From: Methanolinea sp.
Lineage (GTDB): Archaea; Halobacteriota; Methanomicrobia; Methanomicrobiales; Methanospirillaceae
Length of the DNA: 64,000 bases
Direction of reading: 5' to 3'
NCBI GenBank assembly: GCA_030055515.1
Contig: JASFYI010000002.1
Span: 127,290 to 191,289 of the forward strand
The notes under the pieces are model-generated. The model worked only from the letters and a program-made list of their open reading frames with translations. It was not told the DNA's origin and searched no databases. The first letter of the stretch is position 1; the number at the start of each line of letters is the position of its first letter. A program made the position numbers and the translations under genes. This document shows, one piece after another, positions 10,092 through 16,813 of this stretch.

Positions 10092-11456
10092 ATGAAGACG
10101 AAGATCCTCCTCGACGAGGACCAGATGCCACGGCAGTGGTACAATATCCTGCCGGACCTCCCGTCGCCCCTCGATCCCCCGCTCCACCCGGCGACGGGAA
10201 AACCTGTCACGCCGGACGACCTTAAACCCATCTTCCCGATGGAACTCATCAGGCAGGAGATGAGCGACAGGAGGCAGGTCGAGATGCCGCAGGAGGTGAG
10301 GGAGATCCTCCTCCTCTGGAGACCGACACCCCTCTTCCGTGCCCACCGCCTCGAGAGGCACCTCAAGACACCGGCGCGCATCTACTACAAGTACGAGGGG
10401 GTGAGCCCTCCCGGGAGCCACAAGCCGAACACCGCTGTTGCTCAGGCGTACTACAACATGAAGGAGGGCATCGAGCGGATCGCGACCGAGACCGGCGCCG
10501 GGCAGTGGGGGTCGGCGCTCGCGTTCGCGACGCAGCTCTTCGGTCTCGCGTGCACGATCTACATGGTCCGCTCGAGTTACGCCCAGAAACCCTACCGGAA
10601 GTCGATGATGCAGGTCTGGGGTGCCGAGTGCATCCCGAGCCCCAGCACGAGGACGAGGGCAGGGCGCGCGGTGCTCGAGAGGGACCCCGAGACGACGGGG
10701 AGCCTCGGGATCGCCATCTCCGAGGCGGTCGAGGACGCGGCGACCCACCCCGACACCAACTACTCGCTCGGCTCGGTCCTGAACCACGTCTGCCTCCACC
10801 AGACCGTGATCGGCCTCGAGTGCAGGGAGCAGCTCGCGACCGTGGACGAGTACCCCGACGTCGTGATCGGGTGCGTGGGCGGCGGCTCGAACTTCGCCGG
10901 GATCTCCTTCCCGTTCGCCGCGGACAAGATCAAGGGGAGGAGGAAGGATCTCGACATCGTCGCCGTGGAACCTGCCTCGTGCCCGACGCTCACGAAGGGG
11001 CTCTACACCTACGACTACGGGGACGTCGCGGGCCTAACCCCGCTCCTCAAGATGTTCACGCTCGGCCACGACTTCGTCCCGCCGTCCATCCACGCGGGGG
11101 GCCTCCGGTACCACGGGGACTCCCCCATCGTCTCCCGCCTCGTGCACGACGGGGTGATGAGGGCGGTCGCGTACCACCAGACCGAGGTCTTCGAGGCCGC
11201 GCAGACCTTCGCCCGCACCGAGGGGATCATCGTCGCGCCGGAGACATCGCACGCGGTGAAGGCGGCGATCGACGTGGCCCTCGCCTGCAGGGAGAAAAGG
11301 GAGGAAAAGACGATCCTCTTCAACTGCTCGGGCCACGGGAACTTCGACATGGCCGCGTACGACGCGTTCTACGCCGGCCAGCTCGTGGACTACGAGTACC
11401 CTGCCGACCTCATCAGGGAGTCCCTCTCCCGCATCCCGAAGGTGCCCGGGAGCTAA
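10092..11456 (+). CDS. trpB2: Tryptophan synthase beta subunit, TrpB2 type
   Basis: This PLP enzyme makes L-tryptophan from indole and serine (TrpB2 forms usually act without TrpA, and may salvage indole). The PLP lysine is Lys111 in GSHKPNT, the catalytic glutamate lies in ETGAGQWG, and the phosphate loop is GGGSNF. At 454 residues, with an N-terminal extension ([17 protein letters not shown]), it is a typical TrpB2 rather than TrpB1; a second, TrpB1-type gene sits in the operon at 19143. The ATG is about 25 bases downstream of a TATA-like palindrome, so the mRNA is probably leaderless. Confidence 0.95.
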
Positions 11457-13901: not shown

Positions 13902-14582
13902 ATGGAGCACGTGCGGAAGGCTTTCGACGACGCGGCGGCGCGGTACGACAGCACGCGGAAGTACATCATCCCCGACATGGACGGGTTCTACGGCGCGGCG
14001 GTCTGGGCCGCGGACTGGCCGGCGGAAGACCCGGCCGTCCTCGACATCGGCGCGGGAACGGGCCTCCTCTCCGCGATGATCGTCGAGAAATTCCCGGTGG
14101 CGAGGGTGACCCTCCTCGACATCTCGGACCGGATGCTCGAGGTCGCGAGGGCCCGGTTCTCCGGCAACCCCCGCGTCCGGTTCGTGGTCGCGGACTACAG
14201 CAGGGAGGAGCTCCCCGGGGTGTTCGACATCGTATGCTCTGCCCTCTCCATCCACCACCTCGACCACGCCCAGAAGAGGGATCTCTTCGCGAGGATCCAC
14301 GCGGCCCTCGTCCCCGGCGGGATATTCGTGAACGCGGACCAGGTGGAACCCCCATGCGACTGGCTCTCCCGGAAGTACCGGGAGTACTGGGACTCCCACC
14401 TCGCGGGGGCACCCATCGACCCGGCAGAGGTGGAGGCGGCGAGGGCCCGGAGGGAGGCCCTCGACCAAAACGCGCCGCTCCTCGACCAGGTCCGTTGGCT
14501 CGGGGAAGCCGGGTTCTCCTGCGTCGACGTCGTGTACAAGAACAGGACTTTCTGCGTCTTCGTGGCGAGGAAGGGGGAGTGA
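13902..14582 (+). CDS. Class I SAM-dependent methyltransferase
   Basis: A 226-residue Rossmann-fold methyltransferase. Motif I is LDIGAGTG (residues 47-54), motif II ends in LLDISDRML, and VVADYSREELPG precedes the post-I acidic region; an IHHLD motif follows. It resembles the UbiE/trans-aconitate group of small-molecule methyltransferases, but the acceptor cannot be predicted. The gene lies between the MEDS-PAS sensor and the trp leader, with no sign that it belongs to the trp operon. Confidence 0.82.
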   Translation: MEHVRKAFDDAAARYDSTRKYIIPDMDGFYGAAVWAADWPAEDPAVLDIGAGTGLLSAMIVEKFPVARVTLLDISDRMLEVARARFSGNPRVRFVVADYSREELPGVFDIVCSALSIHHLDHAQKRDLFARIHAALVPGGIFVNADQVEPPCDWLSRKYREYWDSHLAGAPIDPAEVEAARARREALDQNAPLLDQVRWLGEAGFSCVDVVYKNRTFCVFVARKGE

Positions 14583-14653
14583 GGGAGCGGGTGGCCGGGA
14601 GCCCTGCATCCCAGCTGCCCCGCAACACGCGCCCACGCACTTTCGTGCAGCAA

Positions 14654-14669
14654 TGTATAAATAGTTACA
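14654..14669 (+). promoter_or_regulatory. TATA/operator element before the trp leader
   Basis: TGTATAAATAGTTACA has TGTA...TACA ends and matches the trpB2 promoter element at 10059 in 11 of 16 positions; both are preceded by CAA. It lies 20-35 bases before the ATG of the leader ORF (14689), the same geometry as at trpB2. I infer a shared tryptophan-responsive operator overlapping the TATA box. Confidence 0.55.
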
Positions 14670-14688
14670 TCGAGGAACATAATAATAC

Positions 14689-14787
14689 ATGAAGGACGAG
14701 ACGAGCAGCCACCGGGTGATGCCGGTGGACTGGGGATCGCCGCCGGCACGGCGGCACGCAAAGAGCGCCACGAGAGGCGCGTTCTAG
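14689..14787 (+). CDS. Putative trp operon leader peptide (32 codons, one Trp)
   Basis: An ATG at 14689, positioned for a leaderless transcript from the TATA-like element at 14654, opens a 32-codon frame ending in TAG at 14785. It contains a single tryptophan codon (codon 15, PVDWGS) and many Arg, Ser and Ala codons. Three hairpins are nested within it and the trpE-coding frame begins about two dozen bases after it in the -1 phase. It could be a regulatory upstream ORF, or the true N-terminus of trpE joined by a frameshift. No homologue is known to me. Confidence 0.45.
   Translation: MKDETSSHRVMPVDWGSPPARRHAKSATRGAF
14709..14780 (+). promoter_or_regulatory. Three tandem hairpins in the trp leader
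   Basis: Three perfect inverted repeats follow one another: CCACCGG/CCGGTGG (14709-14728, 6-base loop), GCCGCC/GGCGGC (14739-14755, 5-base loop) and GCGCC/GGCGC (14765-14780, 6-base loop). The Trp codon of the leader ORF (14731-14733) lies directly between the first and second stems. The arrangement recalls translation-coupled leaders, although no U-rich attenuator follows. Confidence 0.45.
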
Positions 14788-14810
14788 GAAATTCCTCTCC
14801 TGCGGGGTGC

Positions 14811-16238
14811 GAGTTCCACCTCGAGACGGCCGAGATCCCGCTGCCGGCAGCCGACCCGTTCACGCTCTATTCTGCCATCGGGAAGGGGGGCGGCTGCATC
14901 CTCGAATCCGTGGAGGGGATCCCGCGGAGGGCCGTCCGGTCGTTCGTCTGCCCCGCGCCTCCGGTCGCGATCGCGCAGGGGGATACCGTCACGTACACGG
15001 GCGACCGGGCCATCATCGAGCGGCTCGAGATCCCGCAGGCCCGGGACCCGGTCGCGCTCCTGCGGGACCTCTGCGGGCAGATCCGGTGCACGGCCGTGCC
15101 GGGGTGCGGTTTTGCGGGGGGATTCATCGGGTACATCGCGTACGATGCCGTCACCGCTCTCTCCGGGGGCAGGGTGGACGCGGGGAGGGACAGGTACCTC
15201 GCGCGGTTCATGCTCTGCACCCGGGGGGTCGTGTACGACCACGTGGCCGGTTCCTGCACCCTCTTCGAGAATGTGCTTGTCCCGCCGGGGGGCGTAAGAG
15301 GGGATGCGGTGGGGGAGGCAAGGGAGAACCTCCTCTCCCTCCGGGAGGAGGTGGAAGCGGTCACCCCGCGGCAGGAGGGGGGGATCCCTCCCCCGGGAGA
15401 CCTGCCCCCCCTCGCGTCGCACCCGGACCGCGAGGGGTACACCGGGGCCGTCGAGAGGGCGCTCCGGTACATCAGGGAAGGCGACATCTTCCAGGTCGTC
15501 CTCTCCCGGAAGGTCACGTGCCCCTCGCGTGCCGACCCCCTCTCCCTCTACGGGGCGATGAGGGCGATCAACCCCTCCCCCTACCTCTACTGCTTCCGGT
15601 TCGACGACGAGGCGGTCATCGGGTCGAGCCCTGAGATGCTGGTCCGCGTGGAGGGCCGGGAGGTCAGGACGGTCCCCATCGCGGGGACGAGGCCGAGGGG
15701 CAGGGACACCGCGGAGGACGACGCCCTCGCCATGGACCTCCTCTCCGACCAGAAGGAGAGGGCCGAGCACCTGATGCTCGTCGACCTCGCGAGGAACGAC
15801 GTCGGGAAGGTCGCGGCGTTCGGGTCGGTCGAGGTCCCGGTCTTCATGGAGGTGGAACGGTTCTCCCACGTCCAGCACATCATCTCGGCCGTCCGCGGGA
15901 CGCTCCGGGAGGGGTGCGACCGGTTCGACGCCCTCGCCGCGTGTTTCCCCGCGGGCACGGTGAGCGGGGCGCCCAAGGAGAGGGCCATGCAGATCATCGC
16001 GGAGCTCGAGGGGCACCCGAGGGGCCTGTACGCGGGCGCGGTCGGGTACGCGGCGTTCTGCGGCCCGCTCGAGTTCGCGATCGCGATCAGGACGCTCGTC
16101 GCGAGGGAGGGGAGGATCGAGTTCTCGGCCGGCGCGGGGATCGTCGCCGACTCTTTGCCCGAGAGGGAGTTCGAGGAGACGGAAGCAAAGGCACGCGCCA
16201 TGGTCGAGGCGATCCGCCGCGCGGGGGTGGCGGGATGA
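14811..16238 (+). CDS. trpE: Anthranilate synthase component I (5' end unresolved)
   Basis: TrpE converts chorismate to anthranilate using ammonia supplied by TrpG. The C-terminal chorismate-binding domain is complete: IREGDIFQVVLSR, IAGTRPRG, RAEHLMLVDLARND and GTVSGAPKERA. The feedback-inhibition motif LES (in CILESVEG) is present but lies just before the first in-frame GTG (14910), so that GTG cannot be the start; TrpE-like sequence reaches back to about 14811. No ATG, GTG or TTG exists in this frame as far back as the stop at 14658. The coordinate 14811 marks the beginning of recognisable homology, not a start codon. It overlaps trpG by four bases. Confidence 0.88.
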   Translation, partial: EFHLETAEIPLPAADPFTLYSAIGKGGGCILESVEGIPRRAVRSFVCPAPPVAIAQGDTVTYTGDRAIIERLEIPQARDPVALLRDLCGQIRCTAVPGCGFAGGFIGYIAYDAVTALSGGRVDAGRDRYLARFMLCTRGVVYDHVAGSCTLFENVLVPPGGVRGDAVGEARENLLSLREEVEAVTPRQEGGIPPPGDLPPLASHPDREGYTGAVERALRYIREGDIFQVVLSRKVTCPSRADPLSLYGAMRAINPSPYLYCFRFDDEAVIGSSPEMLVRVEGREVRTVPIAGTRPRGRDTAEDDALAMDLLSDQKERAEHLMLVDLARNDVGKVAAFGSVEVPVFMEVERFSHVQHIISAVRGTLREGCDRFDALAACFPAGTVSGAPKERAMQIIAELEGHPRGLYAGAVGYAAFCGPLEFAIAIRTLVAREGRIEFSAGAGIVADSLPEREFEETEAKARAMVEAIRRAGVAG

Positions 16239-16813
16239 GGGTCGTCATCGTGGACTGCTTCGACAGCTTCACCTACAACCTCCACCAGATGGTGGGGGCG
16301 CTCGGCGCAACGCCGGTCACCCTCACGTCGGACTGTTCCCTCGCGGAGATTGCCCGCGCGGCGCCCGACAGGATCATCCTCTCGCCGGGGCCCGGGAGGC
16401 CCGAGGACGCGGGCGTCGTCCTCGAGGTCATCGGGGAATTCGCGGGGGAGGTCCCGATCCTCGGCGTGTGCCTCGGCCACCAGGCGATCGTCCACGCGTT
16501 CGGGGGTACGATCGAGAGGCTGGAGACCCCCGTCCACGGCAAGACGAGCAGGATCCGCCATTCCGGCAGGGGGATCCTCGCGGGGATCGAAAGCCCCCTC
16601 GTCGCCACGCGGTACCACTCTCTCGCCGCGCCCGCGAGTGGCCTCCCGCCCGCGCTCGAGGTCACCGCCGTCTCCGAGGACGACGGGTGCGTGATGGGGG
16701 TGATGCACAGGGACATGCCGATCTTTGGGCTCCAGTTCCACCCCGAGAGCATCATGACGAGGGACGGGCACAAGATCGTCGCCAACTTCCTTGGGGGAGG
16801 GGGTGCCCGGTGA
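16235..16813 (+). CDS. trpG: Anthranilate synthase component II (glutamine amidotransferase)
   Basis: A 192-residue class I glutaminase that delivers ammonia to TrpE. The triad is visible: Cys79 in GVCLGHQ, His169 and Glu171 in HPES. The N-terminus VDCFDSFTYNL is the standard TrpG/PabA start. ATG 16235 overlaps the trpE stop (ATGA) and its own stop overlaps the GTG start of trpD, so translation is coupled along the operon. No separate pabA is seen, so a shared role in folate-type synthesis cannot be excluded. Confidence 0.96.
   Translation: MRVVIVDCFDSFTYNLHQMVGALGATPVTLTSDCSLAEIARAAPDRIILSPGPGRPEDAGVVLEVIGEFAGEVPILGVCLGHQAIVHAFGGTIERLETPVHGKTSRIRHSGRGILAGIESPLVATRYHSLAAPASGLPPALEVTAVSEDDGCVMGVMHRDMPIFGLQFHPESIMTRDGHKIVANFLGGGGAR

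Follow-up and report, generated by a model that had tools for sequence, protein, structure and literature searches.

How do ribosomes enter trpE at a locus where the gene has no start codon of the usual kind, and where the earliest start-like codon in its frame overlaps a Trp codon in another? The question arises in a 64,000 nt stretch of Methanolinea sp. DNA (GenBank assembly GCA_030055515.1, contig JASFYI010000002.1, forward-strand positions 127,290-191,289), referred to here as the window; all coordinates below are window positions. A first-pass annotation had described an ATG at leaderless distance from a promoter-like element, opening a 32-codon ORF with a single Trp codon between two hairpins. 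This description holds: the ATG at 14689 is 33 nt past the first base of the TATA-like element, and the TGG at 14731-14733 falls between stems 1 and 2. The features of the locus are as follows, with the basis for each in parentheses.

10092-11456, + strand: trpB2, encoding a TrpB-like enzyme (Pfam and NCBIfam searches)
14656-14663, + strand: TATA-like element TATAAATA of the trp promoter (sequence)
14689-14787, + strand: leader ORF of 32 codons, MKDETSSHRVMPVDWGSPPARRHAKSATRGAF (ATG at 14689, TAG at 14785-14787)
14709-14715 with 14722-14728, + strand: stem 1, CCACCGG/CCGGTGG, spanning the SD-like element (folding)
14715-14720, + strand: SD-like GGTGAT within the leader ORF (aligned spacing in relatives)
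14719-14733, + strand: conserved leader core ATG CCG GTG GAC TGG, M-P-V-D-W (relatives)
14727-14733, + strand: proposed shift site G_GAC_TGG (base constraints in intact cassettes; the slip itself is inferred)
14730-16238, + strand: trpE in the -1 frame, with CTG 14730 taken as its entry codon, 502 codons plus stop (ORF, Pfam, NCBIfam)
14731-14733, + strand: TGG, the leader's sole Trp codon (found in each of the 143 intact cassettes)
14739-14744 with 14750-14755, + strand: stem 2, hairpin GCCGCC-GGCAC-GGCGGC (folding, relatives)
14765-14769 with 14776-14780, + strand: stem 3, GCGCC/GGCGC (folding)

The first-pass annotation treated trpE as an independent gene beginning at a start of its own further downstream. 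The trpE frame is instead -1 relative to the leader ORF, and ribosomes appear to enter it at the Trp codon. Within the window, this frame is open from 14661, and the earliest ATG, GTG or TTG in it is the GTG at 14910. Counted from CTG 14730, the Pfam domain Anth_synt_I_N begins at residue 41 (near 14850) and Chorismate_bind at residue 234. A start at GTG 14910 would remove 20 residues of the N-terminal domain, and entry must therefore be upstream of any canonical start; the earliest start-like codon in the frame is CTG 14730-14732, which shares two bases with the Trp codon of the leader. The best NCBIfam match of the window's TrpE is TrpE-arch, at 472 bits, under its 512-bit cut-off. The lack of a canonical start is not peculiar to the window: in 29 relatives with CTG at the same point, none is found between the upstream stop and the core. 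At the other end of the gene, the trpG ATG overlaps the trpE stop (ATGA, 16235-16238), so that trpG is probably translationally coupled to trpE. ARAGORN calls a tRNA-Ala at 16379-16472, within the trpG coding region, which is probably a false positive.

The same arrangement recurs widely. An SD-like GGTGAT followed by ATG-CCN-NNG-GA[A/C]-TGG (MPxxW), hereafter the cassette, is found intact at trpE in 143 Methanomicrobiales genomes (135 tabulated, plus loci L170, L270, L271 and L272-L276), including members of all six families sampled; in each, the trpE frame is -1 relative to the leader, and the earliest codon available to trpE, [A/C]TG, overlaps the one for Trp. TrpE was located in the window's family and the DNA upstream was read in about 100 genomes, most of which have the cassette; a self-made consensus-like TrpE query served solely for locating trpE. 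A class-wide search for the cassette pattern, with the reversed pattern as a control that gave few matches, was also made, and 72 further loci were read. Six matches to the pattern in other classes were set aside as unrelated reading frames away from trpE, and a second match in one genome (G152, locus L189) as chance; the window's own genome has a single exact match, the one at trpE. Judged from these comparisons, the recurrence of the ORF core and Trp codon at trpE is more than chance, and the conserved cassette as such is almost beyond doubt. Its existence, frames, spacing and conservation, like the missing canonical start of trpE, can be read directly from the genomes. No published description of it was found in the open-access literature, subscription papers being outside the scope of the search.

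Beyond the core, the leader varies. In some genera it terminates immediately past the Trp codon (MPVEW-stop, MPLDW-stop, MPSDW-stop); in the window's genus it mostly extends about 20 codons further. In one genus (f3g24, loci L272-L276) the core is MPSDW and the trpE entry codon CTG, with the immediate stop in L272 and L273, where the second trpE codon is GTG. One genome (G209) has a second MPVEW cassette, L229, between the end of trpB2 and an ATP-NAD kinase-like gene; its trpE has its own copy elsewhere (L247), and L229 is probably a remnant left after the trp operon moved.

If the cassette works at the level of translation, the leader must be read by ribosomes, and several features suggest that it is. 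The 33 nt between TATA-like element and ATG in the window is also the commonest spacing among relatives (29 of the in-frame ATGs counted). Where relatives have a nearby TATA, 59 of the ATGs lying 26-41 nt past it are in the MPxxW frame, vs 10 in the other frames, and 52 of the 57 relatives with any ATG at this distance have one that is open and in the MPxxW frame. This frame is kept although the distance from the ATG to the core ranges from 0 to 26 codons. The leader ORF is therefore probably translated, from leaderless or nearly leaderless mRNA. In other genomes ribosomes could be delivered differently: among inspected relatives from families f4 and f5 and from part of f6, trpB2 is directly upstream and its TGA stop overlaps the MPxxW ATG (TGATG). 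The convergence of two delivery routes, a leaderless ATG and the end of trpB2, on one core strongly hints at its translation. Elsewhere in the leader the residues are not conserved, and codon periodicity outside MPxxW, tested in both frames, gave no clear signal; thus the frame and the core seem to matter and the rest of the peptide does not. The earlier suggestion of a translated leader ORF with a regulatory Trp codon, coupled to an archaeal trpE, is in this respect borne out by conservation.

Within the core, individual bases are constrained. In intact cassettes codon 3 may encode V, L, M, Q, P, R or S, and its third base is G without exception. Of 135 genomes, 67 have C and 68 have A immediately before TGG and none has G or T, the family f1 data being unbiased at this base and families f2-f6 having been collected with patterns that preset some positions; among the matches listed, there was no G or T form at trpE. 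On the TrpE tree this base has switched between its two states at least 17 times. Asp is encoded only by GAC and Glu only by GAA, for which the probability by chance is ~10^-12, calculated from genus codon usage with one case per genus and codon. The letters of the SD-like element vary among relatives (GAGGTGAT, GGAGCGGAT, GGAGGGGAT); its distance to the GA[A/C] codon hardly does, 131 of 135 genomes having 11 nt in alignment. This is within the 9-14 nt reported for SD stimulators of -1 frameshifting (PMC5009743).

From these signals we infer that the leader is translated, that trpE is entered by a -1 slip, and that entry responds to Trp. In the proposed sequence of events, the mRNA would begin at or near ATG 14689 and the leader would be translated; on arrival of the ribosome at GAC-UGG, the SD-like element would pair with 16S rRNA. 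With ample Trp-tRNA, UGG would be decoded and the leader frame continued to termination at 14785, yielding no TrpE. With Trp-tRNA scarce, the ribosome would pause with GAC in the P site and UGG in the A site; the SD pairing would pull on it and, in the window's genus, a hairpin 5 nt ahead would help to hold it, and the P-site tRNA on GAC could then re-pair one base back, at GGA. The next codon read by the slipped ribosome would be CUG (Leu), or in half of the relatives AUG (Met), and translation would proceed in the trpE frame, so that TrpE would be a trans-frame protein, in the window MKDETSSHRVMPVD-LGIAAG.... The sign of control fits, in that Trp shortage would increase TrpE. The invariant G of codon 3 is also accounted for, since a tRNA bound to GA[A/C] would need it to re-pair at GGA. 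Two features fit less comfortably: the site, NNG_GA[A/C]_TGG, contains no slippery heptamer of the form X_XXY_YYZ, and re-pairing of tRNA-Asp on GGA would be poor, with one Watson-Crick pair, one G-U pair and one mismatch. On balance we incline towards a -1 slip into trpE at UGG when Trp-tRNA is scarce. Whether the cassette is a complete hungry-codon switch, with Trp shortage causing the slip at the single UGG and slipped ribosomes alone making TrpE, seems to us an evenly balanced proposition.

The main rival of the slip is a variant with the same sensor and logic, in which a ribosome stalled on UGG is split, and its small subunit, held by the SD-like element, restarts at [A/C]UG with initiator tRNA; TrpE would then begin with Met. 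The anatomy called for is identical, there is an SD near the entry codon, and that codon is AUG in half of the cassettes. Removal of the stalled ribosome is an essential part of such a scheme: a ribosome standing on UGG covers [A/C]UG, and as long as it stays, control through independent initiation at that codon would have the wrong sign. Against restarting, the SD-like element is 13 nt from [A/C]TG, long for initiation; the corresponding spacing for trpG is mostly 6-7 nt (29 relatives, used as the reference because the window's ORFs gave too few clear cases). Were initiation at [A/C]TG of the ordinary kind, one would moreover expect GTG and TTG ahead of CTG, and the reverse is observed: neither occurs, and CTG is common. 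Restarting also leaves the third-base G of codon 3 unexplained. We regard it as doubtful.

Plain initiation at CUG or AUG by means of the SD-like element, with the leader serving for coupling or to lower expression and no sensing of Trp, would be simpler. The element does exist, plain initiation is conceivable in the half of cassettes with AUG at the entry codon, and the overlap of the trpB2 stop with the core ATG resembles that in coupled genes. The known starts nevertheless provide no precedent for CTG: the 31 ordinary trpE genes of the same family begin with ATG (28), GTG (2) or TTG (1), and the trpG genes of 29 relatives with ATG (24) or GTG (5). Nor would it explain why the Trp codon is invariant or why the base before it is only A or C.

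Genomes that have lost the Trp codon bear on the same point. In one locus (L268, genome G204) a 1 nt insertion fuses the ATGCC frame with trpE and the Trp codon is missing, making this, to judge by its sequence, a natural constitutive variant. At four other loci (L265, L266, L267 and L269) the leaderless ATG opens the trpE frame itself and a Trp codon of this kind is absent, and in genus g11 there are many genomes without the cassette in which trpE begins at an ordinary ATG; the cassettes present in this genus at L136, L153 and L155 appear decayed. Compared across variants, retention of the Trp codon goes with a trpE frame at -1 to the leader, and its loss mostly with an ordinary in-frame start of trpE. 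Plain initiation offers no reason for the joint loss of Trp codon and fusion in frame, and we consider it distinctly unlikely.

A third possibility is that the nascent peptide M-P-x-[D/E]-W is itself the sensor, responding like TnaC to free Trp within the ribosome and so barring or allowing entry into trpE. The short conserved core with Trp as its last residue, and the leaders that stop directly after it, would suit an arrest peptide; the additional 20 or so codons usual in the window's genus would not. A peptide sensor is also hard to reconcile with seven different amino acids at residue 3 and with D, E or G at residue 4, and it gives no reason why GAT and GAG, which would encode the same peptide, are never seen among the matches listed. 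We think this reading very improbable.

Bacterial-type transcription attenuation through alternative stems is suggested by the window itself, where a leader ORF has its Trp codon between stems, and the first-pass annotation had proposed that a ribosome stalled at this codon would keep the second stem open. The three hairpins it named do all fold in the window, where the leader region has a minimum free energy of -49.5 kcal/mol (z = -2.8; 1 of 200 shuffled sequences was as stable), but only stem 2 is conserved, and that in some genera. Stem 1, perfect here, has all 7 of its pairs in 1 of 135 genomes, and stem 3 falls in a region variable in sequence and length among relatives. The stem 2 hairpin, which starts 5 nt past TGG, is found in three genera (g1, g14 and g17), with all 6 pairs in 26 distinct sequences; compensatory changes on both sides were scored in 11 cells, all at one base pair. 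The remaining genera have another hairpin, a weak one or none after TGG, and since it is absent or weak in several of them, a downstream hairpin is at most accessory. The alignment of relatives that had been put forward as a check thus shows conservation of the ORF core, of its Trp codon and of a single stem. With stem 1 unconserved, stem 2 missing from many genera, and no terminator-like site found in a scan for bacterial-type terminators, the idea of a stalled ribosome holding stem 2 open finds no support. No known Rfam leader, riboswitch or T-box family scored above cut-off in 14400-15100, where there was one sub-threshold chance match. Attenuation is accordingly an extremely improbable explanation. 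Two other candidates, T-box-like pairing with a tRNA 3' end and slippage at homopolymers, were dropped as the letters do not appear to fit them. Finally, the first-pass annotation had allowed that a sequencing or assembly indel might hide an ordinary in-frame trpE start, as the two frames lying open side by side in the window could suggest, but this has next to no chance of being correct, given that 143 genomes share the -1 arrangement at this very codon.

Returning to the slip at UGG, which remains our preferred reading, its elements can be matched individually to known systems. Leader-peptide attenuation is a bacterial mechanism that depends on alternative stems. The cassette resembles attenuation of the TrpL type in placing a Trp codon within a leader ORF ahead of trpE and in its presumed sensing of Trp-tRNA; it differs in having one Trp codon rather than tandem ones, in lacking both terminator and antiterminator, and in overlapping trpE. 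A different layer of control may exist at the promoter: many relatives (L118, L124 and L125 among them) have TGTACA, which we take to be the TRP-box sequence of TrpY, just past the TATA box, and this suggests transcriptional control besides the cassette; there is no exact copy in the window's own promoter. TrpY of Methanothermobacter, like the cassette, controls a methanogen trp operon but acts on its transcription (PMC6737238), whereas the cassette would be translational and could act additionally. Little is known of archaeal amino acid control besides TrpY (PMC6737238), and the cassette would add a translational layer to it. Entry into trpE gated by a Trp codon is probably a kind of control not previously described in archaea and, if real, the first known archaeal amino acid sensor in a leader ORF. 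It would also put trpE starts in Methanomicrobiales beyond the ordinary rules for start codons, and annotations of them may be wrong.

Frameshifting as such has precedents. Programmed -1 frameshifting has been demonstrated in archaea for an alpha-L-fucosidase gene (PMC8037382), although at another kind of site and with no link to amino acid supply; a review of archaeal recoding does not mention trpE (PMC8211752). The -1 cassettes of E. coli dnaX and of insertion sequences likewise have an SD 9-14 nt upstream and, as in the window's genus, a stem-loop 5 nt past the site (PMC5009743), but dnaX relies on a slippery heptamer and has no sensing codon, whereas the cassette has an invariant Trp codon in the A site instead. 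A 2016 review considered that hungry-codon frameshifting could yield starvation-specific proteins, with no examples known (PMC5009743); the cassette is a concrete, order-wide candidate for one. The closest likeness in overall design is to prfB, in which a short first ORF contains an internal SD-like stimulator, 3 nt from a product-limited UGA at which a +1 shift occurs (PMC5009743). The cassette, too, has a short ORF and an internal SD-like element, and would have a product-limited codon, with the main ORF reached by a change of frame: the codon at the shift site is UGG in all intact cassettes, and the product regulated belongs to Trp synthesis. The differences are that the shift in prfB is +1, at a stop codon, with the SD 3 nt away, in bacteria, while that proposed here is -1, at a sense codon, with the SD 11 nt away, in archaea. 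If the proposal is correct, the cassette would be a sense-codon counterpart of prfB autoregulation.
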